64,000 nt of DNA, taken from positions 14,063 through 78,062 of the forward strand of contig NZ_NEUF01000194.1 of the NCBI RefSeq assembly GCF_002910915.1, written 5' to 3'. The position numbers and the translations under genes were made by a program. Shown here piece after piece: positions 5,615 to 49,811 of the stretch. The notes under the pieces are model-generated. The model saw only the letters and a list, made by a program, of their open reading frames with translations. It was not told the DNA's origin and made no database searches. Source of the stretch: Streptomyces sp. SM10 (lineage in GTDB: Bacteria > Actinomycetota > Actinomycetes > Streptomycetales > Streptomycetaceae). The stretch's first letter is position 1. The number at the start of each line of letters is the position of its first letter.

Positions 5615-5723
5615 GGTGGATCAACCCCCGTGGTCGAGCGAGCCGGGCGGCTCGCCATGTCCGCACTCTGACCTGCGCGGGTTCGGGCCGGGAAGGGGTC
5701 GGGCGGTGGACCACCCTGATAGG

Positions 5724-5759
5724 CGACAGCCCCGCCGGAACCGTCCGGCGGGGCTGTCG
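5724..5759 (-). terminator. Strong hairpin downstream of the DHA2 exporter
   Basis: Perfect 15-bp stem CGACAGCCCCGCCGG / CCGGCGGGGCTGTCG with a 6-nt loop (16 bp if the closing A-T is counted), 64 nt beyond the exporter stop on the minus strand. No T run, as is common in Streptomyces. Confidence 0.8.
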
Positions 5760-5822
5760 GGTGCGCTGTGTTGACGTCCTGGGCTCCCGGAGGGCACCGG
5801 GAGGGTCAGGAGCCGTGGACGG

Positions 5823-7433: not shown

Positions 7434-8178
7434 GCGCTGGACATTATGGCGGCCACTGCCAGGAGACAAACCAATTCACCGGACATTGACTGTCACGTAG
7501 CTCACAGGGTGGCGGCGCAGGGCGAAACCGCTGATTTGCGTCCGGCGGGTGGCATGAGGGAGGCCGTGAGGGAGCCCCGTCAACGTCACTCCGGCGCGTC
7601 CCCCTAGAGGGGCGATGTGCCGAGCCGTTCCTGAAGCCCTGGCCGTGATCGCCGGGACGGGGCCGGCCGACGACACGACGGCACACCTGCCGGAAGGCAG
7701 AAACCGAAGGCAGCGAGGGGGCGGCCGAACCCCCGGACGCCCACCTGCCGAATGATCACGGAGCGTGAGAGTTGGCCCGGGGAGCGGATCCGCGCCCTCA
7801 GACGGCGGATTCGCCGCCCTCCCCGGGATCACGCCACCGACCGGACAGGGCCGGGACGGCGGGAGCGAGTGGGCCGGGAAGCCTCGGCCGGCGGCTCGAT
7901 CGCGGTCGGACCTGCGCTCCCAGGGAGCGGTGCGCCACGGACGTATGTCCTTACGCGAACCGCACAGTTGTGCCGGACCCCTCATCGCGACCGCATGGCC
8001 GAACTCACAACGGCTCCGCATCCCAGGCCTTTTCACGCATCCGGCGGCCATCCGGCGCGTCGGAGAGTGAACCGGGCACACACGGAGCGTAGGAGAGGAG
8101 GGATCAATTCCTCACGTGTGGGTGATCCGTGTCACCCCTGCGACGACGTCACGGGCGCGTCTCCTAGGGTGGGGCGCA
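7434..8178. promoter_or_regulatory. 745-bp divergent intergenic region
   Basis: No convincing coding sequence: reading frames here lack the third-position G+C bias of the neighbours. At the right end TAGGGT (8165-8170) is an extended Streptomyces -10 hexamer placed 8 nt before the GTG of the hydrolase gene, predicting a nearly leaderless mRNA. On the minus strand CATAAT lies 9 nt before the exporter start. The middle (about 7500-8090) holds nothing I can identify. Confidence 0.45.
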
Positions 8179-10594: not shown

Positions 10595-11941
10595 ATGCCC
10601 ACCTCTCCCGCCGGGCCGCCCACGCCCGCCGACGGTCTGCTGAGCGCCGCCCGCCGCAATCTGCGCGAGCTCGCCCACGGGCTGTCCCACGCGTCCCACT
10701 CGTCGGCCCCTCCGTTCGCCGGGTCCCCGAAGCTTTGGCTGCGGCTCCTGCCGTACGCCGTCGTGCTCGCGCTCACCGCCGTCTTCGTCCCCACCACGAT
10801 CCAGGTCCTGGCCAACGACTACGGGGTGCCCGGCGGGCTCGCGGCCGCCCTGGCCGTCGGCCAGGCCGCGCCCCTGCTGATGCTGGCGCACCGGCCGCTG
10901 CAGGCCTGGTGGATCGTCTTCGCCGCCGACGTCGCGGGTGCGCTGGTCCTGCTCGGTACGGCCGAGCAGCCGCAGGGCACCATCTGGCCGTGGACGCCGC
11001 CGGTCATCGTCGGCTATCTCTTCGTGCTGCTCGCTCTCGGTCTGCGCGAGAGCCGGAGGACCGTGATCGGCGTCTGGCTGGTGACGGGCGCGGCCGGTCT
11101 GGCCCTGCACCTCGTGGCGCCGGCGCGCAGCGGCGGCGGCGCACTCCTGCTGGTCGTCCTCGGCGCGCTGGTGCTGGTGATCGGGCAGGCGGTGCGGGAG
11201 CGGGGCGAGGCCCAGCGCCGGCTCGTCGAGCAGGAGACGATCAGCGAGGCGGAGCGGGCGCAGCGGACGTTGCTGGAGGAGCGCACCCGGATCGCACGGG
11301 AGCTCCACGACGTGGTCGCGCACCACATGTCGGTGATCACCGTGCAGGCCGACTCGGCTCCGTACCGGATCGGCGGGCTCTCCGAGGAGGCGCGGTCGGA
11401 GTTTGCGGCGATCGCGGCGGGGGCCCGGGAGTCGCTGGCCGAGATGCGCCGGCTGCTGTCGGTGCTGCGCAGTGACGGAACCCGGGGGGAGCTGGCTCCG
11501 CAGCCCGGTCTCGACCGGCTGCAGCAGCTGGTGGAGGCGACGGTGCGGGCGGGGCTCCCGGCCGAGCTGTCGCTGGCGGGGGACGTGGGGGAGGCGGTGG
11601 AGCGGGGCGGCGTACCGCCGACGGTGGATCTGTCGGCGTACCGCATCGTGCAGGAGTCGCTGGCGAACGTGGTGCGGCACGCGCCGGGTGCCCGGACCCG
11701 GGTGTCGGTGACGGCGCTCGACGGCCATCTGACGGTGCTGGTGGTCAACGACCCCGCGGTCCGGCCGGGTTCACCGCTCGAGGCGTCGGGGACGGGACAC
11801 GGGCTGGTCGGTATGCGGGAGCGCGTACGGTTGACCGGCGGCACACTCGACACCGGCCCGCTGCCGGACGGGGGTTTCCGGGTCTCCGCGAGGCTCCCGC
11901 TGCAGCCGCCCTCGGCGTCCCTGAATCCGGAGGATCTGTGA
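10595..11941 (+). CDS. Sensor histidine kinase (NarL/DesK type)
   Basis: 448-residue membrane kinase paired with the regulator that starts 4 nt before its stop (GTGA overlap). ATG 10595 has no clear Shine-Dalgarno but begins the conserved N terminus. About four to six transmembrane helices occupy residues 45-205, then a coiled segment (EAQRRLVEQETISEAERAQRTLLEERTRIA). The HisKA_3 dimerisation helix carries the phosphorylated His238 in ARELHDVVAHH. The ATPase domain has the N box (E-S-L-A-N-V-V-R-H-A) and G box (GTGHGLVGMRERV). The signal is unknown; there is no extracellular loop long enough for a classic sensor domain. Confidence 0.95.
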   Translation: MPTSPAGPPTPADGLLSAARRNLRELAHGLSHASHSSAPPFAGSPKLWLRLLPYAVVLALTAVFVPTTIQVLANDYGVPGGLAAALAVGQAAPLLMLAHRPLQAWWIVFAADVAGALVLLGTAEQPQGTIWPWTPPVIVGYLFVLLALGLRESRRTVIGVWLVTGAAGLALHLVAPARSGGGALLLVVLGALVLVIGQAVRERGEAQRRLVEQETISEAERAQRTLLEERTRIARELHDVVAHHMSVITVQADSAPYRIGGLSEEARSEFAAIAAGARESLAEMRRLLSVLRSDGTRGELAPQPGLDRLQQLVEATVRAGLPAELSLAGDVGEAVERGGVPPTVDLSAYRIVQESLANVVRHAPGARTRVSVTALDGHLTVLVVNDPAVRPGSPLEASGTGHGLVGMRERVRLTGGTLDTGPLPDGGFRVSARLPLQPPSASLNPEDL

Positions 11942-12618
11942 CCATCCGCGTGATCATCGTCGACGACCAGGCCATGGTGCGGGCCGGGTTCGCCGCACTG
12001 CTGGCCGCCCAGAGCGACATCGACGTGGTGGGCGAGGCACCGGACGGGCGCAAGGGCGTCGAGGTCAGCAGGGCGGCGCATCCGGACGTCGTCCTGATGG
12101 ATGTCCGGATGCCGGAGATGGACGGACTGGCCGCCGCCCGCGAGCTGTTGGACCCGCCGGTGGGGGTGGTCCACCGGCCGCGGGTGCTGATGCTCACCAC
12201 CTTCGACGTCGACGACTACGTCTACGAGGCGCTGCGCGCCGGGGCGTCCGGGTTCCTGCTGAAGGATGCCCCGCCGGGCGACCTGATCTCGGCGGTGCGG
12301 GTCGTGGCGGCCGGGGACGCGCTGCTCGCGCCGTCCGTGACGCGGCGGCTCATCGCGGACTTCGCCCGTCAGCGGCCGGCGGCGCCGTCCGGCGGACCGG
12401 CTCTGCGGCTGAACGGTCTGACACCGCGTGAGAGGGAGGTCCTGGAGCTGATCGCCCGGGGGCTGTCGAACCAGGAGATCGCGGCCCGGCTGGTCCTGGC
12501 CGAACAGACGGTGAAGACGCACATCGGCCGGGTGCTGGCCAAGCTCGGCCTGCGGGACCGGGCGCAGGCGGTGATCTTCGCGTACGAGTCGGGGCTGGTG
12601 GCCCCGGGAGAGGCCTGA
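11938..12618 (+). CDS. LuxR/NarL-family response regulator
   Basis: 226-residue partner of the kinase at 10595, translationally coupled through the GTGA overlap. The receiver domain has the acidic pair DD at residues 9-10 region (IIVDDQAM), phospho-acceptor Asp55 in VVLMDVRMPEMDG, the conserved T in LMLTTFD and K in LLKDAPP. The C-terminal LuxR helix-turn-helix (L-T-P-R-E-R-E-V-L...NQEIAARLVLAEQTVKTHIGRVLAKL) is complete. It presumably controls transcription of nearby genes, among which the hydrolases at 8179 and 13194 are candidates, but no target site is demonstrated. Confidence 0.96.
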   Translation: MTIRVIIVDDQAMVRAGFAALLAAQSDIDVVGEAPDGRKGVEVSRAAHPDVVLMDVRMPEMDGLAAARELLDPPVGVVHRPRVLMLTTFDVDDYVYEALRAGASGFLLKDAPPGDLISAVRVVAAGDALLAPSVTRRLIADFARQRPAAPSGGPALRLNGLTPREREVLELIARGLSNQEIAARLVLAEQTVKTHIGRVLAKLGLRDRAQAVIFAYESGLVAPGEA

Positions 12619-12678
12619 GGCCCTGGCCCCGCCGGACGCTTGGCTCCGGCACCGGTGTGAGGGTTTGGCTTCACCGGC

Positions 12679-13000
12679 ATGACCACGGAACACGCGCCCC
12701 TCGACTCCGGCCTCGACGTCCTCGTCCAGGGGCAGCGGCCCCGCCCTGCTGCTCGCCCACGGTGCCGGCGGCGGCATCGAGGGCAACTTCGGCCTCGTCC
12801 TGGACGATCTCGCCCGGGACCACACCCTGATCGGGCCGCACTACCCGGGGACGGGCCGCAGCCCCGTGGCCTCCGGCCCCCTGGATCCGGACGAACTCGC
12901 CGACCGACTGTTCGCCTCCGCACGGGCGTCGGGGCAGGAGTCGTTCGCCGTAGTCGGTGAGTCGCTCGGCAGCGCCGTGGCCGTCCGCCGCCCCGTCCCG
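12679..13000 (+). pseudogene. Alpha/beta hydrolase pseudogene (frameshifted, C-terminally truncated)
   Basis: The reading starts at ATG 12679 (MTTEHAPLDSGLDVLVQG) and continues only after a shift by one base into LLLAHGAGGGIEGNFGLV...IGPHYPGTGRS...FAVVGESLGSAVAVR. The four-G run at 12729-12732 holds one G too many for the family reading, which would be VQGSGPA. The chain is lost directly after the nucleophile elbow G-E-S-L-G-S (about 12957-12990); the remaining two thirds of an ordinary 250-270 residue hydrolase, including the acid and histidine, are missing. The single-base lesion might be a sequencing error, the truncation is not. Confidence 0.8.
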
Positions 13001-13154
13001 GCACCCGGGGTGACCGCTTCCCCCGCGACGTACGGCGGGCACCCGGCCGGCGGTAGGGCTTTCCCCCCGTACACCCCCTACCCCGGTGCGACAGGGGAGT
13101 TGGCTCCGCGGGGTGACGCCCTGTCACCGGTCGCCCTCCTACCTTCCTCCCCTG

Positions 13155-13170
13155 CACACCGAACGGTGTG
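13155..13170. promoter_or_regulatory. Palindrome upstream of the second DUF1023 hydrolase
   Basis: CACACCGAACGGTGTG is a perfect inverted repeat (6-bp arms, 4-nt centre) 23 nt before the hydrolase start, just ahead of its GGGGAGGG ribosome binding site. It could be an operator or a small RNA hairpin. Confidence 0.5.
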
Positions 13171-13193
13171 GACGGACGTAAGGGGAGGGCACG

Positions 13194-14237
13194 ATGCGCC
13201 GATTCGCGAGGACCTTGGCCGCGGTCGCAGTGGCGACCACCGTGGTGGCGGGGACGGCGGGCTGGGCGGCCGGGAACACCCAGCGGGCGGTGACCGGTCC
13301 GCCACCCGGCAGCGCGTCGTGGCGCGCCGACGGGGCTCTGGGCAGGGAGCTGCCCGACCCCGGCCGCGCGTCCCCGGCCGAGGTCCGGCGGTTCTTCCGC
13401 GGGCTGACCGGTGCCCAGCAGCGGGAGCTGCTGGAGCGGCACCCGTCGGTGGTCGGCAATCTGGACGGGGTGCCGCTGGAGCTCCGCTACCGCGCCAACG
13501 CCCGTGCGCTACGGGCCTCCCACGATCCCCGGTACGCCTCCCTCGCGGCGCCGGGCCGGCAGATCCTCGCGTTCGACCCTCGGGGGCGCGGGCAGGTCGC
13601 CGAGGTGTTCGGGAATCTCCGCTCCGCACGTCATGTGTCGGTCGTCGTGCCCGGGTCGGACATCGACGCCGGGACCTTCGACCGGCGCGGCGACGTGTAC
13701 GGCACCCCGGCGGGCATGGCGAGGTCGCTGTACGCCGAGACGGGCGCGGGCAGCGCGGTGATCGCCTGGGCCGGGTACACGACCCCGGTCGGCCTCGGAC
13801 TGGACGCGGCGACCGGATCCCTGGCCGAGGCGGGGGCGGAGCGGCTGGCCCGGTTCACAGCGGGCCTGGCCGCCGACGGGCTGCCCGCACCCGTCGTGTT
13901 CTGCCACAGCTACGGCTCCGTGGTGTGCGGACTGGCGGCCTCCGGGCTCGGCGCCACGGACCTGGTCGTGCTCGGCTCCCCCGGGATGCGCGCCGACGAC
14001 GTCTCCGGTCTGCACACCCGGGCGCGGGTCTGGGCGGCCAAGGACGCCACCGACTGGATCGACGGCGTACCGCACGTCGAGGTGGCGGGACTCGGCCACG
14101 GCGCCGACCCGGCCGGCGAGGAGTTCGGGGCGCGCCGGGTGCCGGCGCAGGACGCCGAGGGCCACACCGGCTACTTCGCTCCGGGCACCGACTCGCTCCG
14201 CGCCTTCGCGGCCATCGCCGAGGGGGCCTCCCGATGA
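13194..14237 (+). CDS. Secreted alpha/beta hydrolase, DUF1023 type (paralogue of 8179)
   Basis: 347-residue exported protein with a signal peptide (residues 1-26, RRFARTLAAVAVATTVVAGTAGWA). It shares with the gene at 8179 the blocks SVVGNLDG, ELRYRANARAL, RQILAFDPRGRG, VSVVVPG, GMARSLY, FCHSYGSVVCG (nucleophile Ser239), GSPGMRAD, LHTRARVWA, DWIDG and GLGHGADP. It is shorter because a 30-residue linker and the cysteine-bearing tail are absent. ATG 13194 has a strong GGGGAGGG site. The stop overlaps the start of the acyltransferase gene by 4 nt, suggesting joint action on a cell-surface acyl substrate (inference). Confidence 0.87.
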   Translation: MRRFARTLAAVAVATTVVAGTAGWAAGNTQRAVTGPPPGSASWRADGALGRELPDPGRASPAEVRRFFRGLTGAQQRELLERHPSVVGNLDGVPLELRYRANARALRASHDPRYASLAAPGRQILAFDPRGRGQVAEVFGNLRSARHVSVVVPGSDIDAGTFDRRGDVYGTPAGMARSLYAETGAGSAVIAWAGYTTPVGLGLDAATGSLAEAGAERLARFTAGLAADGLPAPVVFCHSYGSVVCGLAASGLGATDLVVLGSPGMRADDVSGLHTRARVWAAKDATDWIDGVPHVEVAGLGHGADPAGEEFGARRVPAQDAEGHTGYFAPGTDSLRAFAAIAEGASR

Positions 14238-15442
14238 GCGTGCGCCGACTGGTCTCCCGCATCGACGCGAGCACCCCCGCCCACCGGGACCGCGCGGTCG
14301 ACGGGCTGCGTGCCCTGGCGCTGCTGGCCGTCCCCACCGGTCACTGGCTGCTCGGCGGATTCACCACGGGCGGGGAGGGCGCCCTGCACAACGCCAGCCC
14401 GCTCTCCGCGTTCGCCGTGTTCTCCCCGGTGAGCTGGGTGCTCCAGATGCTGGGCGTGTTCTTCCTGGTCGGGGGATACGCCTCCGTCCGCTCCTACCAC
14501 CGAAGGCCCTCCACCACAGGGGCCTGGCTGCGCGGCCGGGTCGTCCGCCTCGGCAGGCCGGTGCTCGGTGTGACCGCCGTGTGGGCGCTGATGATCCCGG
14601 TGCTGTACGCCGCCGGTGTGCCCGAGGACACCCTGCGCACGGGAGCGAAGCTGGTGATCCAGCCGCTCTGGTTCGTCGGGGTGTACGCCGTGGTCACGGC
14701 GCTCACGCCGTACTGCGTACGTGCGGCCGGGCGGCTCGGGATGTGGGCGGCGGCCCCGCTGATCGGCTCGGTCGCCCTGGTCGACCTGGTGCGCTACGGG
14801 CCGTACGCGGATGCCGTGCCGTCCTGGCTGTCCGTGCTGAACATCCTGCCCGGCTGGCTGTTCGCGTATCAGCTCGGTGTCTCCTGGGGGCTGGGCCGCC
14901 TCTCCCGGAGAGGTGCCGGGCTCCTGCTCGTGGGCGGCACGGCCCTGTTCGCCGTGCTGCTGCTCGCCTTCCACTACCCGGCGTCGATGGTCGGCGTCCC
15001 GGGCGAGGCGCGCACCAACTCGCACCCGCCGTCGCTGCTGGTCCTGGCCCTGGCCTCCGCGCAGAGCGGTGCGGCGGTCCTGCTGCACGGCCGGATCGGC
15101 CGGGCCCTGCGCCGCCCCGCCCTGTGGGCCCCCGTCGTGGTGGTCAACCTGTCGGCGATGACCATCCTGTGCTGGCACCAGACGGCGATGCTGGCGGCCG
15201 CCGTCCCGGCCTCCTTCGCCGGCGCGGTCCCCGGGCTGACCACGGCACCGGACACCGTCGGCTGGATCCTGGCCCGGCTCGCCTGGATGCCGCTGTTCGC
15301 CGCGCTGCTGGTGCTGATCGCGCGGTACGCCCGCCGCTTCGAGGCGCCCTGGGAGGCGGCCGGTGGCGCCGGAACCGCCCGCCGGGCAGCGGCCGGGCTG
15401 CTGGCGGCGGGGTTCGCGGTGTTCGCGCTCCGGCCGGCCTGA
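14234..15442 (+). CDS. Membrane acyltransferase (acyltransferase 3 family)
   Basis: 402-residue integral membrane protein with about ten hydrophobic helices. The early motif DRAVDGLRALALLAVPTGHW matches the acyltransferase-3 signature (R-x10-H in the first helices). Such enzymes move acetyl or longer acyl groups onto sugars, peptidoglycan or secondary metabolites across the membrane. Start ATG 14234 overlaps the stop of the upstream hydrolase (ATGA), so the two are co-translated: one enzyme that could add and one that could remove acyl groups. The last 25 residues form a separate hydrophobic segment ending in ALRPA. Confidence 0.85.
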   Translation: MSVRRLVSRIDASTPAHRDRAVDGLRALALLAVPTGHWLLGGFTTGGEGALHNASPLSAFAVFSPVSWVLQMLGVFFLVGGYASVRSYHRRPSTTGAWLRGRVVRLGRPVLGVTAVWALMIPVLYAAGVPEDTLRTGAKLVIQPLWFVGVYAVVTALTPYCVRAAGRLGMWAAAPLIGSVALVDLVRYGPYADAVPSWLSVLNILPGWLFAYQLGVSWGLGRLSRRGAGLLLVGGTALFAVLLLAFHYPASMVGVPGEARTNSHPPSLLVLALASAQSGAAVLLHGRIGRALRRPALWAPVVVVNLSAMTILCWHQTAMLAAAVPASFAGAVPGLTTAPDTVGWILARLAWMPLFAALLVLIARYARRFEAPWEAAGGAGTARRAAAGLLAAGFAVFALRPA

Positions 15443-38554: not shown

Positions 38555-38616
38555 GACCTCAGCGTACTTGCGCGAACCATTGACACGTCCCCGGGCCCGA
38601 ATTACGGTCACGCCAG

Positions 38617-38658
38617 CATTTCGAACGAGTGACGAAATACCGAACACGAAATACGGAA
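38617..38658 (+). promoter_or_regulatory. Operator cluster of the sugar island (two CGAAATACSGAA copies)
   Basis: CGAAATACCGAA at 38633-38644 and CGAAATACGGAA at 38647-38658, 14 bp apart, next to the inverted repeat ATTTCG-N9-CGAAAT (38618-38638). The left part CATTTCGAACGAGTGA is nearly repeated in front of the arabinofuranosidase gene (49791-49806, minus strand). Lies 21 nt before the dehydratase start. Confidence 0.75.
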
Positions 38659-38678
38659 CACGTGGAGAGGCAACACCC

Positions 38679-39833
38679 GTGCGCATCACCGGAATCAGCA
38701 CGCATGTCGTCGGCACGCCCTGGCGCAATCTCACCTACGTCCAGGTGCACACCGACGAGGGCCTCACCGGGGTCGGCGAGACCCGGATGCTGGGCCGCAC
38801 GGACGCGCTGCTCGGCTATCTGCGGGAAGCGTCGGCCAACCACATCAACGGCTCCGACCCGTTCGCGATCGAGGACCTCGTCCGCCGGATGAAGTACGGC
38901 GACTACGGGCGGGCCGGGGAGATCGTGATGTCCGGCATCGCGGTCATCGAGATGGCCTGCTGGGACATCAAGGGCAAGGCGCTCGGTGTCCCCGTCTGGC
39001 AGCTGCTCGGCGGGAAGGTCACCGACCGGGTCAAGGCCTACGCCAACGGCTGGTACACCACCGAACGCACCCCGGAGGCCTACCACAAGGCGGCCCAGGG
39101 AGTCGTGGAGCGCGGCTACCGGGCCCTGAAGATCGACCCCTTCGGTACGGGCCACTTCGAGCTCGGCCACGAGGAGACCCGCTACGCCGTCTCCCTCATC
39201 GAGGCCGTGCGGGACGCCATCGGCCCCGACACCGAGCTGATGCTGGAGATGCACGGGCGGTTCAGCCCGTCGACCGCGGTGCGGATCGCCCGCGAGATGG
39301 CGCCGTTCAAGCCGGCGTGGCTGGAGGAGCCGGTGCCGCCGGAGAACCTCAAGGCGCTGAGCAGGGTGGCGGACAAGGTCGACCTGCCGATCGCGACGGG
39401 TGAGCGCATCCACGACCGGATCGAGTTCCGTGAGCTCTTCGAGTCGGGCGCCGCCGACATCATCCAGCCGGACGTCGGCCACATCGGCGGCATCCTGGAG
39501 ACCCGCAAGCTCGCGGCGACCGCGGAGACCCACTACACGCTGATCGCCCCGCACAACGTGGGCGGTTCGGTGCTGACCGCGGCCAGCCTCCAGGTCGCCG
39601 GCTGCACCCCGAACTTCAAGATCCTTGAACACTTCAACGACTTCGCGGACGCGGACATCAAGAAGGTCGTCAAGGGCGCCCCGGCCGTCGACCCCGCCAC
39701 CGGCTGCTTCGAGCTCTCCGACGCCCCCGGGCTCGGCGTGGAGCTGGACGTGGACGCGGCGGCGGAGTTCCCGCAGCAGCAGGCGCGGTTCGACCTGTGG
39801 GCGGACGGCTGGGAGAAGAGGCAGCCCAAGTGA
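38679..39833 (+). CDS. Enolase-superfamily sugar-acid dehydratase (mandelate racemase/muconate lactonizing type)
   Basis: 384 residues. Capping domain N-terminal, then the barrel with K-I-D after strand 2 (LKIDPFG), metal ligands E/D in LMLEMHGRFS, E-E-P in AWLEEPVPP and E in TGERIHDR, then D-V-G-H-I-G-G and the late His in APHNVGGS. The H-G-R and A-P-H-N arrangement resembles galactonate/gluconate-type dehydratases. It would turn an aldonic acid into a 2-keto-3-deoxy acid. GTG 38679 follows GTGGAGAGG. Overlaps the next gene by 4 nt. Confidence 0.88.
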   Translation: MRITGISTHVVGTPWRNLTYVQVHTDEGLTGVGETRMLGRTDALLGYLREASANHINGSDPFAIEDLVRRMKYGDYGRAGEIVMSGIAVIEMACWDIKGKALGVPVWQLLGGKVTDRVKAYANGWYTTERTPEAYHKAAQGVVERGYRALKIDPFGTGHFELGHEETRYAVSLIEAVRDAIGPDTELMLEMHGRFSPSTAVRIAREMAPFKPAWLEEPVPPENLKALSRVADKVDLPIATGERIHDRIEFRELFESGAADIIQPDVGHIGGILETRKLAATAETHYTLIAPHNVGGSVLTAASLQVAGCTPNFKILEHFNDFADADIKKVVKGAPAVDPATGCFELSDAPGLGVELDVDAAAEFPQQQARFDLWADGWEKRQPK

Positions 39834-40849
39834 GCACCCACTCCCGCTCGTTGAACGTCGAGCGCCCCGGCATTCACCGGCTGACCGAGGGGCCGGTCCC
39901 GGAGCCGGGCCCCGGCGAGGTCAGGGTGCGGGTCGCCGCGGCCGGGATCTGCATGAGCGACCGCGAGGTGTACGACGGCCACCGCGACGCCGCCTACGTG
40001 CGCTACCCCGTCGTGCCGGGTCACGAGTGGTCGGGAACCGTCGACGCGGTGGGCGAGGGCGTCGATCCGGCGCTGACCGGCCGCCGCACGGTCGCCGAGG
40101 GCTTCCGGGCGTGCGGGCGCTGCGAGCGGTGCAGGTCCGGGGAGACCTCCCTGTGCACGGCGGGCTACGACGAGACGGGGTTCACCCGCCCCGGGGCCTT
40201 CGCCGACCACCTGGTGATCCCGGCGCGGCTGCTGCACCCGCTGGCCGACGACGCCGACCTGCGGGCCGCGGCCCTGCTGGAGCCGGCCGCGGTGATCGCG
40301 GCGGCCGTACGGGCGGGGGCTCCCGAGCCCGGCGAGCGGATCGCGGTGGTGGGGGCGGGCACCCTCGGCCTGCTCGCGGTCCAGTTGCTGGCGGCGGTGT
40401 CGCCCGCGGAGCTCACCGTGATCGACCCGAGGCGGGAACGCGCCTCGCTGGCCCTGGGCTTCGGGGCGGACGAGGCCAGGGTCCCGGAGGAGGCCGAGAA
40501 GGTGCGGGGCCGCTACGACCTGGTCGTGGAGACGGCCGGAGCGCCGTCCACCGCGGCGGACGCGTGCCTGCTGGCGCGGCGCGGCGGACGGGTGGTGCTG
40601 ACCGGGATGTTCGCCCCGGGCGCCGTGGGCATCGACCCGGTGCATCTGTCGCTGAGCCAGCTCACCGTGCGCAGCGTATTCGGCGCGTCCTCGGCGGCCT
40701 GGTCCTACGCCGTGCGGGCGTTCACGGCCGGGCTGCTCGATCCGGCGCCGCTGGTCACCCACGAGTTCCCGCTGGAGCGGTTCGCCGAGGCGGTGGCGCT
40801 GGTGGGGTCCGGGAATCCGGAGACCGGGAAGGTGCTGCTGCGGCCGTGA
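39830..40849 (+). CDS. Zinc-dependent sugar/alcohol dehydrogenase (MDR)
   Basis: 339 residues, coupled to the dehydratase by a GTGA overlap. Catalytic zinc ligands: Cys in GICMSD, His-Glu in VPGHEWSG and Glu in LEPAAV; structural zinc cysteines in C-G-R-C-E-R-C-(x)7-C. NAD-binding loop V-V-G-A-G-T-L-G. Probably oxidises the sugar (or a downstream hydroxy acid) in the pathway of the dehydratase. Sorbitol/threonine dehydrogenase-like; the exact substrate is open. Confidence 0.92.
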   Translation: MSTHSRSLNVERPGIHRLTEGPVPEPGPGEVRVRVAAAGICMSDREVYDGHRDAAYVRYPVVPGHEWSGTVDAVGEGVDPALTGRRTVAEGFRACGRCERCRSGETSLCTAGYDETGFTRPGAFADHLVIPARLLHPLADDADLRAAALLEPAAVIAAAVRAGAPEPGERIAVVGAGTLGLLAVQLLAAVSPAELTVIDPRRERASLALGFGADEARVPEEAEKVRGRYDLVVETAGAPSTAADACLLARRGGRVVLTGMFAPGAVGIDPVHLSLSQLTVRSVFGASSAAWSYAVRAFTAGLLDPAPLVTHEFPLERFAEAVALVGSGNPETGKVLLRP

Positions 40850-40933
40850 CGGGCCCGCCCTGATCCGTGCGCCGGCACGGCGGCGCCCTGACCGCCTCCG
40901 CACCGGTGCACGCCCAATGATCCGAATGTCGTC

Positions 40934-40945
40934 CGAAATACCGAA
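40934..40945 (+). promoter_or_regulatory. Third copy of the sugar-island motif
   Basis: CGAAATACCGAA, identical to 38633-38644, followed by CATGAA where the first has CACGAA (16 of 17 positions agree). Located 16-27 nt before the GTG of the gene at 40961, probably over its promoter. Confidence 0.8.
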
Positions 40946-40960
40946 CATGAAGGACCAGTC

Positions 40961-41944
40961 GTGAACGACGCCCCTGTCTCCTCCTCCGGTGCCGCCGGCG
41001 CCCGCCGTCCGGGTGACGCCGCGCTCACCGCGCTCGGTCTCGGCCCGGCACCCCTGTCCCCGGCCGACACCTCCCCGCACTCCTTCCCCGGCGGGGGAAG
41101 CTGGCGCACCGAGGTGCCGTCCGTGGAGGGCCCGGAAGCCCTCGGTGTCGTGCTCAAGGAGTCCGCGAGGCTCGACGTCCCGGTCCACCGGATCAGCCAG
41201 GGCAGCGGCATCTGGATGCTGACCGACGCGGAGATCACCGAGATGGTGGAGGGCTGCGCCGAACGGGACATCGAGCTCTGTCTGTTCACGGGGCCGCGCG
41301 GCACCTGGGACACCGGCGCATCGGTCCGCACCGACTCCGGCGGCGCCGGGCTGCGCGCCCGCGGCCAGGACGCCCTGGCCGGCTGCGTGGAGGACGCGCT
41401 GCGCGCCACGGGACTGGGGGTGAAGTGCCTGCTCGTGGCCGACGAGGGCGTGCTCTGGACCCTGCACCGGCTGCGCGCGCAGGGCGCGCTGCCCGCGGAC
41501 ACCACCTTCAAGGTGTCGGCGCTCATCGGGCCGGTGAACCCGGCCTCGTACGCCGTCTTCGAGCAGCTCGGCGCCGACTCGATCAATATCCCCTCCGACC
41601 TGACGCTCGCTCAGTTCACCGAGATACGGCGGGTGTCGAGGGCCCCGATGGATCTCTACATCGAGGCGCCGGACGATCTCGGCGGCTACGTGCGGATGTA
41701 CGAGGTCGCCGAACTGATCCGGCGCGGCGCACCGCTCTACCTGAAGTTCGGCCTCTCCAAGTCGCCCGGGATCTATCCGTACGGCCAGCACCTGCGGGAG
41801 CTGGCCCTGTCCACCGCCAAGGAGCGGGTGCGGCGCGGGCGGCTCGCACTGGACCTCCTCGCACGGCACGGGGCGGACGGGGGCATGGCCCCTCTCGGCA
41901 GCCGACTGCCGGGCCCGCTCGGCCGGTTCGAGATCTCGTCATAA
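40961..41944 (+). CDS. Uncharacterised protein, U32-peptidase-like barrel, in sugar island
   Basis: 327 residues, no signal peptide, no TM. After a Pro/Ala-rich 60-residue lead the chain shows alternating strands and helices: VHRISQGSGIWMLTDAEI, IELCLFTGPRGTWDTG, GVKCLLVADEGVLWTL, FKVSALIGPVNPASYAVFEQLGADSIN, MDLYIEAPDDLGGYVRMYE and LYLKFGLSKS, as expected for a TIM barrel with acidic residues at strand ends. This layout recalls peptidase U32 domains and some aldolases; similarity is weak. It has its own copy of the island motif in front and is followed by the sugar-importer operon, so an enzyme for a sugar-acid intermediate is plausible. GTG 40961 with AAGGA. Confidence 0.72.
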   Translation: MNDAPVSSSGAAGARRPGDAALTALGLGPAPLSPADTSPHSFPGGGSWRTEVPSVEGPEALGVVLKESARLDVPVHRISQGSGIWMLTDAEITEMVEGCAERDIELCLFTGPRGTWDTGASVRTDSGGAGLRARGQDALAGCVEDALRATGLGVKCLLVADEGVLWTLHRLRAQGALPADTTFKVSALIGPVNPASYAVFEQLGADSINIPSDLTLAQFTEIRRVSRAPMDLYIEAPDDLGGYVRMYEVAELIRRGAPLYLKFGLSKSPGIYPYGQHLRELALSTAKERVRRGRLALDLLARHGADGGMAPLGSRLPGPLGRFEISS

Positions 41945-42074
41945 CGTTCCGGAAACAGCCTCCCCAAAAGAAGACAGAGCCGCGCAGAATCCCACACACC
42001 TGTTCTCGGTCGAGCCGCCCCCAGCATTCCGGCGTCGACGGACCGAGCCATGACACACATCAAGGATGATGACC

Positions 42075-43184
42075 ATGCGCAACCGCAGAGCCGCACTCGC
42101 CGCCATAGCCTCCACCGCCACGCTCGCCCTCGCCCTGACCGCCTGCGGCCAGAACAGCGAAGGCGGCGGCGAGGAGAAGAAGGGAGGCAGCGAAGGCGCC
42201 ACCATCGGCGTCGCCATGCCGACCAAGTCCTCCGAGCGCTGGATATCCGACGGCGCCAACGTCGTGAAGGAGCTCAAGGCCAAGGGCTACAAGACCAAGC
42301 TGGTCTACGGTGAGGACGACCCGGACCAGCAGGTCTCGCAGATCGAGAACATGATCACGCAGGGCGTGGACGCCCTGATCGTCGCGGCGATCGACAACAA
42401 GTCGCTCAACAACGTGATGCAGCAGGCGAAGGACGCCGACATCCCGGTCATCTCCTACGACCGGCTGATCCTCGGCACCGAGAACGTCGACTACTACGCC
42501 TCGTTCGACAACGAGAAGGTCGGCGAGCTCCAGGGCGGCTACATCGCGGAGAAGCTCGGCCTGAAGGAGGGCAAGAAGGGCCCCTTCAACATCGAGCTGT
42601 TCGCCGGATCCAACGACGACAACAACACCAAGTACTTCTTCCAGGGCGCGATGAACGTCCTCCAGCCGTACATCGACAAGGGCGAGCTGGTCGTCAGGTC
42701 CAAGCAGACCGCCCTCAACCAGGTCACCACCCTGCGCTGGGACGGCGGCACCGCGCAGAAGCGCATGGACGACCTGCTGACCTCCAGCTACCGCAGCGCC
42801 CGGGTCGACGCGGTGCTCTCGCCGTACGACGGCATCTCCATCGGCATCCTGTCCGCCCTGAAGTCGGACGGCTACGGCACCGCGGCGAAGGCGATGCCGG
42901 TGGTCACGGGCCAGGACGCGGAGCTCGCCTCCGTGAAGTCGATCATCGCGGGTGAGCAGACGCAGACCGTCTACAAGGACCTGCGCAAGCTCGCCAAGGT
43001 CGCCACGAACATGGTCGACGCGGCGCTGAACGACAAGAAGCCCGAACTCAACGACACCAAGTCGTACGACAACGGCTCCAAGGTCGTCCCCGCCTTCCTG
43101 CTGCAGCCGGTCAGCGTCGACAAGGCGAACTACAAGGAGGCCCTCATCGACGACGGCTACTACAGCGAGAACGACCTCAAGTAA
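42075..43184 (+). CDS. chvE: Sugar-binding lipoprotein of a ChvE-type ABC importer
   Basis: 369 residues. ATG 42075 has AAGGA 8 nt upstream, better than ATG 42066 that overlaps it. Lipobox L-A-L-T-A-C (Cys27). The periplasmic-binding fold of the ChvE/multiple-monosaccharide family is evident: [69 protein letters not shown] and [14 protein letters not shown]. First of three importer genes, followed by ATPase and permease. ChvE proteins bind galactose, arabinose, glucose, xylose and galacturonate. Confidence 0.94.
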
Positions 43185-43216: not shown

Positions 43217-44763
<1,547 letters not shown>

Positions 44764-44767
<4 letters not shown>

Positions 44768-46008
44768 GCACGGACGTGACCGACAGGACCCCGGCCCCCG
44801 CGCCGTCGGGCGGAGGCAAACCGGCCGCCGGCGGCGGACTGCTGCAGCTGATGCTGGACGGCATGCGCCGCAACATGCGGCAGTACGGCATGCTGATGGC
44901 CCTCGGCCTGATCGTGGTGCTGTTCGCGGTGTGGTCGGGCGGTGACCTGCTGCTGCCGCGCAACGTCTCCAACCTGGTGCTGCAGAACAGCTACATCCTG
45001 ATCCTGGCGATCGGCATGATGCTGGTCATCATCGCCGGGCACATCGACCTCTCCGTAGGGTCGCTGACCGCGTTCATCGGCGCGATGTCCGCCGTGCTGA
45101 TGGTCGAGCACGATCTCTCCTGGCCGCTCGCGGTGGTGCTGTGCCTGGCCATCGGCGCGGTCGCGGGCTCCGTGCAGGGCTTCTTCATCGCCTACCTCGG
45201 CATACCGTCCTTCATCGTCACCCTCGCGGGCATGCTGCTCTTCCGCGGTCTGACCGAGATCGTCCTGAAGGGCCAGACCCTCGGCCCGTTCCCGAAGGGC
45301 CTGCAGAAGGTCGCCAACGGCTTCCTGCCCGAGGTCGGCCCGAACACGAACTACCACAACCTCACCCTCCTGCTGGGCTTCGCCCTGATCGCCTTCGTGG
45401 TGATCCAGGAGATCCGCGACCGCAAGCGGCAGCAGGAGTTCGCCCTCGACGTGCCGCCGGCCAAGCTGTTCCTGCTGAAGCTGGTCGCGCTCGTCTCGGC
45501 GATCCTCGTCGTCACGCTGCTGCTCGCCAGCTACAAGGGCGCGCCGGTCGTGCTGCTGATCCTCGGTGTGCTGGTCGTCGGGTTCGGCTACCTGATGCGC
45601 AACGCGATCATCGGCCGCCACATCTACGCCATCGGCGGCAACCTTCCCGCGGCGAAGCTGTCGGGCGTGAAGGACAAGAAGGTCACCTTCCTGGTCTTCC
45701 TGAACATGGGCATGCTCGCGGCCCTGGCGGGCCTGGTCTTCGCCGCCCGCTTCAACGCGGCCTCGCCCAAGGCCGGCCTCAACTTCGAGCTGGAGGCCAT
45801 CGCCGCCTCGTTCATCGGCGGCGCGTCGATGAGCGGCGGCGTCGGCACGGTCCTCGGCGCGATCATCGGTGGCCTGGTCCTGGGCGTGCTGAACAACGGA
45901 ATGAACCTCGTCGGCATCGGCACCGACTGGCAGCAGGTCATCAAGGGAGCGGTGCTGCTGGCCGCGGTCGGCTTCGACGTCTGGAACAAGCGCAAGGTCG
46001 GTTCGTAA
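44764..46008 (+). CDS. mmsB: Sugar ABC importer permease (GguB/MmsB type)
   Basis: 414 residues, about ten helices. Contains the BPD_transp_2 signature: [38 protein letters not shown], and [56 protein letters not shown] near the end. Coupled to the ATPase by ATGA overlap. A 27-nt gap leads to the exported mutarotase. Length is that of the GguB/XylH-like subfamily. Confidence 0.96.
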
Positions 46009-46035: not shown

Positions 46036-47202
46036 ATGACCTTCATGACCGGAACCAGCAGACGCACCGTCCTGGCGGCCACGGCCGCCGCCGGGGTGGC
46101 CGTGGCGGCGGGCGCACCGTCCGCACAGGCCGCGACCCGCGGGCGCACCCCGTCCAGAGAGCTCTTCGGCACGCTCGCCGACGGGACGAAGGTGCACCGC
46201 TGGACCCTCGCCAACGGCGGGACCCGGCTGAAGGTCCTGTCGTGGGGCGGCGTCGTCCACTCCCTGGAGACGCCGGACCGCAGGGGCCGGACGGTGAACG
46301 TCGCGCTCGGCTTCGACAACCTCGCGGACTACGTGGCGAAGTCCCCGTACTTCGGCGGGCTGATCGGCCGGTACGGCAACCGCATCGCCGAGGGGCGCTT
46401 CACCCTCGACGGTGTCACGCACCGACTGCCCGTCAACGACGGCCCGAACAGCCTGCACGGCGGCGACCAGGGCTTCGACAAGCGGGTCTGGGACGTGCGG
46501 CCGTTCACCGAGCGCGGTGACGTCGGGCTGGTCCTGACCCGGACCAGCCCGGACGGCGAGGCCGGCTATCCGGGCACGCTCGCCGTCCGTGTCGTCTACA
46601 CGCTCACCCCGCGGGGCGAGTGGCGCATCGACTACTCGGCGACGACGGACCGCGCGACGGTCCTCAACCTGACCAGCCACACGTACTTCAACCTGGCGGG
46701 CGAGGGCAGCGGCAGCGTCGACGGGCATCTGCTGGAGCTGGCGGCTTCCCGCTACACGCCGGTCGGCGCGACGCTCATCCCGACGGGTGAGCTCGCCCCG
46801 GTGGCGCGTACGCCGTTCGACTTCCGGCGGTCCCGGGCCCTCGGGGACGCGGTCCGCACCCCGCACGAGCAGATCGGCTTCGGGCAGGGGATCGACCACA
46901 ACTACGTCCTGGACAAGGGGATATCGGCCCGCCCGGAGTACGCGCTGACGGTGACGGACCCCGGCTCGGGCCGGGTGATGAAGATGTACACGACGGAGCC
47001 CGGCATGCAGGTCTACACGGGCAACTTCCTCGACGGCACCCTGACCGGCACCTCGGGGCGGGTCTACCGTCAGGGCGACGCGTTCTGCCTGGAGTCCCAG
47101 CACTTCCCGGACTCCCCCAACCAGCCGTCGTTCCCCTCGACGGTGCTGCGGCCGGGCGACACCTACCGTTCGACGACGGTGCACGCCTTCTCGGCCCGCT
47201 GA
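46036..47202 (+). CDS. Tat-exported aldose 1-epimerase
   Basis: 388 residues with a twin-arginine leader (SRRTVLAATAAAGVAVAAGAPSAQA, cleaved about residue 33). Active-site blocks: LIGRYGNRI, LNLTSHTYFNL with the catalytic His, G-I-D-H-N-Y-V-L with Asp and the catalytic Glu in LESQHFPDSPN. It supplies the preferred anomer outside the membrane for the importer encoded just upstream. ATG 46036 with AGGAG 6 nt before. Followed by a strong hairpin that ends the operon. Confidence 0.95.
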   Translation: MTFMTGTSRRTVLAATAAAGVAVAAGAPSAQAATRGRTPSRELFGTLADGTKVHRWTLANGGTRLKVLSWGGVVHSLETPDRRGRTVNVALGFDNLADYVAKSPYFGGLIGRYGNRIAEGRFTLDGVTHRLPVNDGPNSLHGGDQGFDKRVWDVRPFTERGDVGLVLTRTSPDGEAGYPGTLAVRVVYTLTPRGEWRIDYSATTDRATVLNLTSHTYFNLAGEGSGSVDGHLLELAASRYTPVGATLIPTGELAPVARTPFDFRRSRALGDAVRTPHEQIGFGQGIDHNYVLDKGISARPEYALTVTDPGSGRVMKMYTTEPGMQVYTGNFLDGTLTGTSGRVYRQGDAFCLESQHFPDSPNQPSFPSTVLRPGDTYRSTTVHAFSAR

Positions 47203-47443: not shown

Positions 47444-48187
47444 ATGCGTTTCACCTCCGAACACCGCCTCGGCGACGACATCCTCGAACGCCGGTTCCTG
47501 CTCGGCGAGATCCCCGGCATCCTGTGGACGCCCGCGTCCGCACCCGCGTCGGCGCCGGCGCCGCTGATCCTGCTCGGCCACCCTCCGCTCGGGCTGCACA
47601 GGATGTACCCCCGGCTCGCGGAGCGGGCCCGGCAGGCCGGGGCGGACGGCTTCGCCGCGGCCACCGTCGAACTCCCCGGGAGCGGCGAACGGCCCCGATG
47701 GCCCGCCCTCGACCGGGCGCGCGCGGACATGCGCCGGGCCGTGGAGGCCGGCGAGCCCGTCGGCGACGAGATCGTCGACGCCCTCGTCCTCCCTCTGGTC
47801 GACAGGGCTGTCCCGGAATGGCAGGCCGCCCTCGACGCCCTCCTCGCCCTGCCCGGGATCGGCGGGCCGGTCGGGTACTCGGGGGGAGTGATCTCCGTCG
47901 GCACCCGGCTGGCGGCGGTGGAGCCGCGTGTCGCGGCCGCCGTCCTGTTCGCGGGAAGCCTCGTCCCTCGCGTCATCTTCGAGGAGGCGCGCCAGGTCAC
48001 CGTCCCGCTGCACGTCCTGCTGCAGTGGGACGACGAGGGCAACGACCGGCAGGCGGCACTGGACCTGTTCGACGCCTTCGGCTCCGAGGAGAAGACGTTG
48101 CACGCCAACATGGGCGGGCACACCGGCGTTCCGCAGTTCGCCGGGGACGCAGCCGCCCGTTTCCTCACCCGGCACCTGCGGCCCTGA
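47444..48187 (+). CDS. Dienelactone-hydrolase-like alpha/beta hydrolase
   Basis: 247 residues. Strand-loop L-I-L-L-G-H-P-P-L-G near residue 42 (oxyanion side), nucleophile elbow G-Y-S-G-G with Ser146, probable acid D in L-Q-W-D-D-E-G and His in N-M-G-G-H-T-G-V. Layout is that of small cytoplasmic esterases annotated as dienelactone hydrolase or alpha/beta hydrolase. Preceded by the upstream ORF at 47345. Substrate unknown. Confidence 0.85.
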   Translation: MRFTSEHRLGDDILERRFLLGEIPGILWTPASAPASAPAPLILLGHPPLGLHRMYPRLAERARQAGADGFAAATVELPGSGERPRWPALDRARADMRRAVEAGEPVGDEIVDALVLPLVDRAVPEWQAALDALLALPGIGGPVGYSGGVISVGTRLAAVEPRVAAAVLFAGSLVPRVIFEEARQVTVPLHVLLQWDDEGNDRQAALDLFDAFGSEEKTLHANMGGHTGVPQFAGDAAARFLTRHLRP

Positions 48188-48265: not shown

Positions 48266-49783
48266 CTACACCAGCCGGATCATGTTCCAGGACATCGGCG
48301 CCAGCACGGCCTTCAGGGTGCCGTCGGCGAGCTCGGTGCCCTCGGCCGCGTGCGGGAGCACCCGCTCGGGCTCGGCGAGGGTGTTGCGCGCCTCCGGGTC
48401 GGCGTCGGCGATGACCAGGTGCTCGGCCACCCGGCCCAGGTCCAGCCCCGGCAGGGCGACTTCGAGCGGCAGTTCGGCGTCCTGGCTCCGGTTCACGGCG
48501 AAGACCGTGACGGCCCCCGTCCCCGGGTCCCGCACGGCGGTGGCGTGCAGCAGGTCGGCCTCGCCGTACTTCGCCGTCGGGTAGGTGGGCGAGTCCACCC
48601 GTACGTCCAGGACCTGGCCCCGCCCGTACCGCGCGGCCTGCGCGAAGGGGAAGAAGGTCGTCTGCCGCCAGGCGGGCCCGCCGGGCTCGGTCATGATCGG
48701 CGCGATGACGTTGACCAGCTGGGCGAGACAGGCGACGGCCACCCGGTCCGCGTGACGCAGCAGGGCGATGAGCAGGCTTCCGAAGACGACGGCGTCGGTG
48801 ACGGTGTAGTTGTCCTCCAGCAGCCGGGGCGCCTCGGGCCAGTCGAGCGGATTCTCCTCCGTCTCCTGCTGGAAGCGCTTCTGGTACCAGACGTTCCACT
48901 CGTCGAAGGAGAGGTTGATCCTCTTCGTGGACTTGAGCCGCGCTCCCACGTGGTCGCAGGTCGCGACGACGCTCTCGATGAAGGACTCCATGTCGACGGC
49001 CGAGGCCAGGAAGGAGTCGCGGTCGCCGTCGGTCTCCTCGTAATAGGCGTGCAGCGAGACGTGGTCGACGAGGTCGTACGTCTCGGCGAGGACCGTCGCC
49101 TCCCAGGCCGCGAAGGTCTCCATGGCACGGCTGGAGGACCCGCAGGCGACGAGCTGTACGGACGGGTCGATCTGGCGCATCGCACGGGCCGTCTCGGCCG
49201 CGAGCCGGCCGTACTCCTCGGCGGTCTTGTGGCCGGTCTGCCAGGGGCCGTCCATCTCGTTGCCCAGGCACCACAGCCTGATCCCGAAGGGGTCCTTGTC
49301 GCCGTGGGCGGCGCGGAGGTCGGAGAGCGCGGTACCGGACGGGTGGTTGGCGTACTCCTGGAGCTGGATGGCCTCCTGGACGCCGCGGGTGCCGAGGTTG
49401 ACCGCGAGCATCGGTTGGGCCTCCGGGCCGACCTTCCTGAGGAAGGCCATGTACTCGGAGAGGCCGAAACGATTCGTCTCGGTGGAACGCCAGGCGAGGT
49501 CGAGACGGCGGGGGCGCTCGTCGACGGGGCCGACGCCGTCCTCCCAGCGGTAGCCGGAGACGAAGTTACCGCCGGGGTAGCGGATGACGGTGACGCCGAG
49601 TTCGCGGACGAGATCCAGCACGTCGGTGCGCAGTCCGGCCTCGTCGGCCGAGGGGTGGCCGGGTTCGAGTATCCCGTCGTAGACACAGCGGCCGAGGTGC
49701 TCGACGAAGGAGCCGAAGAGCCGTGGGTCGACGTCGCCGACGGTGAAGGCAGGGTCGAGGGTGAAGCGCGCGGTACGGGTCAT
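48266..49783 (-). CDS. Alpha-L-arabinofuranosidase, glycoside hydrolase family 51
   Basis: 505 residues without a signal peptide, so intracellular. Start ATG 49783 with AAGGAAG upstream. TIM barrel with acid/base Glu176 in C-L-G-N-E-M-D-G and nucleophile Glu295 in F-D-E-W-N-V-W-Y, then a C-terminal beta-sandwich. It removes arabinofuranosyl ends from imported arabino-oligosaccharides. Its promoter region carries the same motif as the sugar operon, which links the island to arabinose or arabinan-derived sugars. Confidence 0.97.
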   Translation of the reverse strand: MTRTARFTLDPAFTVGDVDPRLFGSFVEHLGRCVYDGILEPGHPSADEAGLRTDVLDLVRELGVTVIRYPGGNFVSGYRWEDGVGPVDERPRRLDLAWRSTETNRFGLSEYMAFLRKVGPEAQPMLAVNLGTRGVQEAIQLQEYANHPSGTALSDLRAAHGDKDPFGIRLWCLGNEMDGPWQTGHKTAEEYGRLAAETARAMRQIDPSVQLVACGSSSRAMETFAAWEATVLAETYDLVDHVSLHAYYEETDGDRDSFLASAVDMESFIESVVATCDHVGARLKSTKRINLSFDEWNVWYQKRFQQETEENPLDWPEAPRLLEDNYTVTDAVVFGSLLIALLRHADRVAVACLAQLVNVIAPIMTEPGGPAWRQTTFFPFAQAARYGRGQVLDVRVDSPTYPTAKYGEADLLHATAVRDPGTGAVTVFAVNRSQDAELPLEVALPGLDLGRVAEHLVIADADPEARNTLAEPERVLPHAAEGTELADGTLKAVLAPMSWNMIRLV

Positions 49784-49790
49784 GGCTTCC

Positions 49791-49811
49791 TTACTCGTTC
49801 GATATGCCGAA
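49791..49811 (-). promoter_or_regulatory. Sugar-island motif upstream of the arabinofuranosidase gene
   Basis: On the plus strand CGATATGCCGAA (49800-49811) matches the motif CGAwATrCCGAA; on the minus strand CATATCGAACGAGTAA (49806-49791) matches 14 of 16 positions of 38617-38632. Located 8-28 nt before the start codon. Confidence 0.75.

Follow-up and report, generated by a model that had tools for sequence, protein, structure and literature searches.

A conserved, cysteine-poor relative of U32 proteins in a Streptomyces sugar-acid island, with a candidate role in 2-keto-3-deoxy acid breakdown

The closest described relatives of the protein studied here are the U32 hydroxylases TrhP, RlhA, UbiU and UbiV, a group in which four cysteines bind a 4Fe-4S cluster. 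C170 and C177 of TrhP are essential (PMC6599085), and the cysteine motif for the cluster is present in most U32 families and absent from two of ten (PMC6747719); the same paper gives PepU32#5 as a U32 group without conserved cysteines. The metabolic setting of the protein recalls another set of enzymes. For 2-keto-3-deoxypentonate, PMC6336799 gives three known routes, namely aldol cleavage, dehydration and dehydrogenation, and the dehydratases known for this step belong to the DHDPS or the FAH superfamily (PMC9795676, PMC6336799, PMC13398020). The DHDPS/NAL-type L-2-keto-3-deoxyarabonate dehydratase is described as a barrel with a catalytic lysine (PMC9795676), while some FAH/MhpD-superfamily proteins are 2-keto-3-deoxypentonate dehydratases and some FAH-type enzymes accept both isomers (PMC6336799).

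The protein, which we name U32L, is encoded in the window, the whole stretch of 64,000 nucleotides analysed here, which comes from a genome of 7.46 Mb that is 99.7% complete. Two plasmid records give the protein a name, "peptidase", which is misleading. Among the publications listed by searches of the open-access literature, none dealt with the gene.

The U32L island in the window and in Streptomyces

The U32L reading frame begins with GTG, with AAGGA upstream. The island runs on the forward strand throughout, from the MR/MLE dehydratase through the Zn-dehydrogenase, U32L, ChvE, GguA and GguB to the mutarotase; ORF and profile scans agree here with a sequence-only reading of the window, which had put the gene between a dehydratase/dehydrogenase pair and a ChvE-type importer. 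The features are as follows.

38613–38659, + strand: island motif in three inexact copies (3, 1 and 2 mismatches), ahead of the dehydratase gene
38679–39833, + strand: MR/MLE (enolase-superfamily) aldonate dehydratase; nearest model, galactonate dehydratase
39830–40849, + strand: Zn-dependent medium-chain dehydrogenase; its start overlaps the dehydratase stop, and 39797 is a possible alternative start
40933–40946, + strand: island motif CCGAAATNNCGAAC, exact copy, its end 14 bases ahead of the U32L start codon
40961–41944, + strand: U32L, 327-aa ORF, the protein under study
41084–41875, + strand: predicted TIM-barrel domain of U32L, residues 42–305 (AlphaFold2 pLDDT 76.8, pTM 0.81)
41366–41668, + strand: U32-related stretch, about residues 136–236, with D161, K184, S186, N193, D213 and D231
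42066–43184, + strand: ChvE-type sugar-binding protein (NF040907, 542.2 bits, cut-off 460)
43217–44767, + strand: GguA importer ATPase (NF040905, 880.5 bits, cut-off 810; scanned from 43202)
44764–46008, + strand: GguB importer permease (NF040906, 566.6 bits, cut-off 450)
46036–47202, + strand: aldose 1-epimerase (mutarotase; PF01263, E 3.2e-91)
48266–49783, − strand: alpha-L-arabinofuranosidase, oriented towards the island (C-terminal domain PF06964)

The dehydratase scores 286.3 bits on the galactonate dehydratase model and does not reach its cut-off of 311; the profile scans read its ORF from 38553, and we placed the start at 38679. The Zn-dehydrogenase is a presumed sugar 1-dehydrogenase. 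Its identity is 81–93% in some Streptomyces loci and 56–61% in most, against more than about 70% for U32L and the importer, so it seems to have been exchanged within the conserved island. A loose motif-like site (49794–49811) lies upstream of the arabinofuranosidase gene. Between this gene and the mutarotase, a 247-aa ORF (47444–48187) matches nothing in Pfam at 1e-5 and nothing in 80 Streptomyces loci at E 1e-20.

These 80 loci are the best of at least 582 stretches confirmed in a scan of a species collection, and all are Streptomyces or close kin by title. The dehydratase and the dehydrogenase were each found in 76 of them, ChvE in 77, GguA and GguB in 76 each and the mutarotase in 74, and an arabinofuranosidase relative in 10; since the loci were selected by the presence of U32L, some being clipped by contig ends, these counts describe islands that have U32L and give no frequency for islands that lack it. 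Three loci (L087, L095 and L099) carry the dehydratase, the dehydrogenase and U32L without the importer, next to SMP-30 and IclR genes. Of 60 Streptomyces loci, 46 have a further gene 3′ of the mutarotase that by eye resembles a PLP aminotransferase; probably it is no more than a syntenic neighbour.

The motif was assigned to U32L by the earlier reading as well, and the exact copy of CCGAAATNNCGAAC at 40933–40946 confirms it. When three mismatches are allowed, the window holds 65 matches where 36 are expected, which leaves only the close ones informative. With one mismatch at most, 22 sites were counted in the genome and three for the reversed control, at least four of the 22 being one repeated sequence; two of the 22 are exact, where a plain base-composition estimate expects 0.26 per genome, and one of these precedes U32L. 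Among the Streptomyces loci, a strict form of the motif stands ahead of the dehydratase in 75/76 and ahead of U32L in 41/78, and was found ahead of ChvE in 0/77 and ahead of the mutarotase in 0/73. The other exact copy in the genome (L164, 8781–8876, contig C58) is upstream of an extracellular solute-binding protein gene (7386–8726, − strand), and from this copy a second transporter may belong to the island-motif regulon.

U32L was found in 19 of 41 relatives of the source genome, all of the same genus (19/25), and in 40 of 54 Streptomyces genomes when two samples were pooled. Within the class it occurs in 59/296 genomes and 17/105 genera, and within the phylum, at a stricter threshold, in 41/396 genomes and 19/240 genera. 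Five plasmid records also carry it, including those of Thermomicrobium roseum and Enterobacter chuandaensis; nine pattern matches in viral contigs included no relative. The closest relatives in named genomes, among the matches listed, are those of [Kitasatospora] papulosa and S. mutomycini (96% identity) and S. atroolivaceus (95%). Some Streptomyces have a second U32L (L161 in G242, L168 in G011) with 46–47% identity to the window protein, adjoining genes for a sugar-binding protein and a GguB-like permease. In the one-contig chromosome of genome G015 (L019), which has AraA, the U32L match is a 152-residue piece only, and the gene may be decaying there.

Relationship to U32 proteins and predicted fold

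For the window protein taken singly, PF01136 is the sole Pfam match, at 12.7 bits (gathering score 22.4), and NCBIfam gave no match. Of six relatives scanned singly, four pass the PF01136 gathering score, and at E ≤ 1 the model matches all 23 aligned family members (best 4.1e-10). The family profile aligns by hhalign with the four E. coli U32 proteins TrhP, UbiU, UbiV and RlhA with a probability of 96.3% (E 1.6e-9, 145 columns, residues 66–236), and with two further U32 sequences alone with one of 96.2%. These comparisons uphold the distant U32 relation that had been guessed, and on sequence grounds U32L is a distant, cysteine-poor relative of the "peptidase U32" proteins.

The likeness to TrhP, RlhA, UbiU and UbiV extends over about residues 66–236 and includes shared D-x-G-x-L, S and N positions (D161, S186 and N193), and the barrel-like order of strands and helices recalls PF01136 proteins in general. 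In contrast, U32L is shorter than TrhP, lacking the cysteine-rich second half and the U32 C-terminal domain, and the family has no conserved cysteine, with Cys present in at most 9 of 23 members at any alignment column. In the alignment H114, E162 and H166 of TrhP correspond to K184, D231 and E235, and the position of the essential E162 is Asp in 23/23 members. These differences bear on the reading that U32L, like TrhP, RlhA and UbiUV, hydroxylates or otherwise modifies its substrate and has a coincidental or regulatory link to the sugar-acid genes. The detectable homology speaks for it; U32L lacks the 4Fe-4S motif and the cysteines on which TrhP and RlhA depend (PMC6599085 and PMC6747719), Asp replaces the essential Glu, and the link to aldonate dehydratases is repeated across many genera, which together make it very improbable. 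Because the four 4Fe-4S cysteines are absent, we do not file U32L among these hydroxylases.

Twelve residues are invariant in 23/23 members, down to 32% identity: E51, R77, D161, K184, S186, N193, D213, R223, D231, R245, K262 and R291. All twelve are retained in the L157 and Enterobacter members, in which the loop 79–83 (SQGSG) is altered; perhaps these act on other substrates with the same chemistry.

The predicted fold of U32L is a TIM barrel, as the sequence-only reading had supposed. Eight beta-alpha units appear in both AlphaFold2 models, that of the domain and that of the whole protein (pLDDT 63.4, pTM 0.70), the latter with strands at residues 47–52, 77–80, 105–109, 156–159, 182–185, 207–210, 230–234 and 259–263, which places K184 in strand 5 and K262 in strand 8. 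The alignments behind both models consist of Streptomyces sequences only, 81–97% identical to the window protein. Barrels fill the rows of the fold search. The best VIA match is CutC (Z 16.1, rmsd 3.2, 202 residues), with other barrels close behind, and we abandoned reading a function from the fold, since Foldseek and VIA return unrelated barrels of many kinds and the predicted fold is thus uninformative on function. U32 entries were absent among the fold matches listed, which counts neither for nor against the kinship, and sequence searches of the PDB, whether by the window protein or by the family profile, brought up chance matches only.

Gene neighbourhoods and the proposed reaction

To place U32L in a pathway, we compared 47 loci, made up of 40 regions chosen by hand among the relative, class and phylum hits so as to spread over genera, a few second copies included, together with those of T. 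roseum, Enterobacter, Nonomuraea and four Streptomyces. Neighbours were labelled by tblastn with seeds taken from the first half of the loci, so an absent label is weak evidence. An aldonate dehydratase was found in 28 of the 47 (MR/MLE in 16, IlvD in 12, never both), a count that describes these hand-picked loci. In 13 loci the dehydratase gene adjoins U32L on the same strand, nine times an MR/MLE gene within 15 bases and four times an IlvD gene within 43 bases; unrelated dehydratase families swap places next to U32L, and the link recurs in many genera. The remaining 19 loci have neither MR/MLE nor IlvD, and several (L152, L163, L241, L244 and L033, from Nonomuraea) have no sugar-acid neighbour at all, the neighbours of L152 and L033 being seemingly unrelated and L163 adjoining, by eye, fatty-acid synthesis genes. 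The other labels were IclR (18 loci), SDR (17), Zn-dehydrogenase (15), SMP-30 (10), ALDH group c9 (9), KGSADH-like ALDH (7), KdaD-like FAH (7), APH-like kinase (6), KDG kinase (5), enolase (5), KDPG aldolase, second SDR, other FAH and DHDPS (4 each), and GH51, GH43, GntP and mutarotase (2 each).

Given the 28 loci with MR/MLE or IlvD, 13 of them with adjacent genes, U32L probably acts on the dehydratase product, a 2-keto-3-deoxy acid. The earlier reading had suggested that the gene could supply an aldolase or kinase missing after the dehydratase. The step itself is backed by the neighbourhoods, whereas a kinase is not supported, as Pfam and NCBIfam gave no kinase match; we hold a dehydratase somewhat likelier than an aldolase. 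From these neighbourhoods we tentatively infer that U32L is an L-2-keto-3-deoxyarabinonate dehydratase, forming alpha-ketoglutaric semialdehyde. The pathway would be an oxidative, non-phosphorylating sugar route with U32L next after the aldonate dehydratase. The island would import an aldose of L-arabino configuration, L-arabinose or perhaps D-galactose or D-fucose, which would be mutarotated and then oxidised at C1, and the aldonate would lose water to give the 2-keto-3-deoxy acid. U32L would then take off the C4 hydroxyl of L-2-keto-3-deoxyarabinonate, and an aldehyde dehydrogenase would convert the resulting alpha-ketoglutaric semialdehyde to alpha-ketoglutarate. The chemistry could proceed through an enamine or enolate at the barrel mouth, with K184 or K262 taking part, acids such as D161, D213 and D231 assisting and arginines holding the carboxylate.

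The proposed reaction is the one catalysed by the DHDPS/NAL-type L-2-keto-3-deoxyarabonate dehydratase (PDB 3FKK, 7C0C), but in DHDPS/NAL enzymes the catalytic lysine is on strand 6, not on strands 5 and 8 as in U32L, and no Pfam match to DHDPS (PF00701) was obtained at E ≤ 1. With FAH/MhpD enzymes U32L would share the reaction type, though these have another fold and family, and no Pfam match to FAH families was found at E ≤ 1. KdgA, the 2-keto-3-deoxygluconate aldolase of the DHDPS family, and KDPG aldolase occupy the same pathway position, after the aldonate dehydratase; neither gave a Pfam or NCBIfam sequence match to U32L.

Two kinds of locus favour dehydratase or hydratase chemistry. In L157 (G313, 5216–8096, − strand), a divergent U32L with 33% identity to the window protein is the first gene of an overlapping operon, followed by genes that clear the models for acetaldehyde dehydrogenase (437.5 bits against a cut-off of 282.25) and then 4-hydroxy-2-oxovalerate aldolase (520.5 against 286); the first junction is TGATG and the second ATGA. 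This order matches hsaEGF, in which hsaE is the 2-hydroxypentadienoate hydratase (PMC6498646), placing U32L in the hydratase position, and no FAH-type hydratase was found among the labelled genes of the 15-kb stretch, the labels covering part of its ORFs. Dehydration of 2-keto-3-deoxypentonate and the 2-hydroxypentadienoate hydratase reaction are alike. L146 and L153, which belong to two genera within one family, share the order U32L, MR/MLE, Zn-dehydrogenase, KGSADH-like ALDH and SMP-30 lactonase and had no tblastn match to KdaD, DHDPS or KDPG aldolase seeds, so that their labels include no enzyme known for the step. Against this, a xylose-isomerase-like TIM-barrel gene (AP_endonuc_2) also adjoins U32L in L146.

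On the other side stand the 19 loci without an aldonate dehydratase. Moreover, a KdaD-like FAH dehydratase is co-located with U32L in seven loci (L154, L155, L156, L228, L232, L236 and L240) and a DHDPS-family gene in four (L150, L151, L159 and L243), which weakens the dehydratase reading, as these enzymes are possibly redundant with U32L; a KdaD acting on the D isomer would excuse its presence, but some FAH-type enzymes, as noted above, accept both. The KdaD-like protein of L156 matches PDB 2Q18 at 2.7e-53. The DHDPS protein of L150 is weakly closest to L-2-keto-3-deoxyarabonate dehydratase (59 bits, dapA-type 53), and the other FAH of L149 is closest to L-2,4-diketo-3-deoxyrhamnonate hydrolase (1.5e-56). 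Two further observations favour the dehydratase reading: the L-arabinonate dehydratase model gives the IlvD partner of L149 a score of 865.8, near its cut-off of 882 without reaching it, and arabinofuranosidases lie near U32L in the window, L145 and L147.

The same seven loci can be accounted for if U32L is instead a non-phosphorylating 2-keto-3-deoxy-acid aldolase, in a pathway common to pentoses and hexoses in which pentoses are dehydrated and hexoses cleaved. 2-Keto-3-deoxyarabinonate or 2-keto-3-deoxygalactonate would then give pyruvate with glycolaldehyde or glyceraldehyde, an aldol cleavage of the kind catalysed by Sulfolobus KdgA. Adjacency to aldonate dehydratases fits this equally well, the island dehydratase is nearest to galactonate dehydratase, and the two invariant barrel lysines would suit a class I aldolase. 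However, the L157 operon has its own aldolase, the KGSADH-like genes of seven loci would be superfluous in a plain aldolase route, and the activity would be redundant in L148, L150, L154 and L159, where KDPG aldolase and KDG kinase seeds match. We therefore regard an aldolase as unlikely, if well worth weighing. L240 points elsewhere, as it already appears complete (mutarotase, Zn-dehydrogenase, IlvD, KdaD and a KGSADH-best ALDH) and yet has U32L, which would suit a helper of the isomerase type that acts on the aldonate or the 2-keto-3-deoxy acid, be it an epimerase, a tautomerase or a ring-opening enzyme. None of the established routes is known to call for a step of this kind between these enzymes, and it would leave the L157 operon unexplained, so that a helper is improbable. 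Whatever likelihood is not taken up by a dehydratase, an aldolase, an isomerase or tautomerase, or a hydroxylase falls to some other function.

The aldehyde dehydrogenases bear on the last step of the dehydratase route. For those of L228, L236 and L240 a KGSADH model is the best match, with scores of 556.1, 528.7 and 543.9 that stay below the cut-off (770); for those of L157 and L149 it is not. Group c9 is mixed, with three members KGSADH-best under the cut-off, two matching other ALDH models over their cut-offs and one further member best on succinic semialdehyde dehydrogenase, under the cut-off. The KGSADH-like label of group c6 is a lead; it draws on low scores with the models in L146 (71.7 of 750 at best) and on NADP-type ALDHs like PDB 1EYY and 3V4C, which we take to include known KGSADH isozymes.

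In five loci (L149, L150, L158, L159 and L032, the last at 11165–14852 of the Enterobacter plasmid pE20191216), U32L has a divergent enolase and an APH-like kinase among its neighbours. A role in converting glycerate through 2-phosphoglycerate to PEP, which the enolase suggests, was set aside as weakened: in 9/9 freshwater-type genomes tested the enolase neighbour is the divergent copy beside a stronger enolase match.

Sugar routes in the source genome and what U32L may mean

L-arabinose isomerase (AraA_N) was absent from the source genome, 99.7% complete, while the same search was positive in 5 of 14 control genomes; L-arabinose, if used, should therefore bypass the isomerase, and the island is a natural candidate. 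A complementary distribution of AraA and U32L was not significant among the Streptomyces of the two samples; AraA is rare in both groups, being present in 6/40 U32L-positive and 4/14 U32L-negative genomes (Fisher p 0.42). A KdaD-like protein was not found in the source genome by a search run without a positive control. The genome has four DHDPS-family genes; of the three scanned, one passes the dapA model, one passes the subfamily model for 5-dehydro-4-deoxyglucarate dehydratase and the third resembles the latter, under its cut-off.

The source genome's homologue of the KGSADH-like gene (49% identity) is found on another contig, where it diverges from an IclR gene and a site of loose similarity (score 9.7) lies upstream of it; a 5-dehydro-4-deoxyglucarate dehydratase-type gene may account for its presence. 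This location away from the island counts against the dehydratase reading, as do orthologues in 4 of 6 Streptomyces relatives that lack U32L. Membership of this gene in the island regulon was considered and rejected: the site corresponds in relatives to a GTTCAGNATANCGAAC palindrome, which is also clear in 2/4 genomes without U32L, so a shared regulon is not taken as proven. At L183 (9404–11849, contig C14 of the source genome), an NADP-type ALDH gene and an IclR gene form a divergent pair, and the GTTCAGNATANCGAAC-like palindrome at this pair is found again in Streptomyces relatives.

In summary, U32L is a conserved family of U32-related barrels without the iron-sulfur cysteines and tied to aldonate dehydratases. 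It is possible, if rather doubtful, that this cysteine-less U32 branch forms a third, unrelated family of 4-hydroxy-2-oxo-acid dehydratases/hydratases, replacing the DHDPS- and FAH-type 2-keto-3-deoxypentonate dehydratases in Actinomycetota and the MhpD/HsaE-type hydratase in at least one genome. If so, U32L would, to our knowledge, bring carbon catabolism for the first time to a superfamily known for hydroxylating RNA and quinones, and Streptomyces without the isomerase would have an oxidative L-arabinose route. Should U32L prove to be a sugar-acid lyase, it would supply a step so far lacking in the oxidative sugar use of many bacteria from soil and freshwater and provide a new enzyme family for pentose-to-alpha-ketoglutarate routes, and the chemistry of U32 barrels would not be limited to RNA and quinone hydroxylation.
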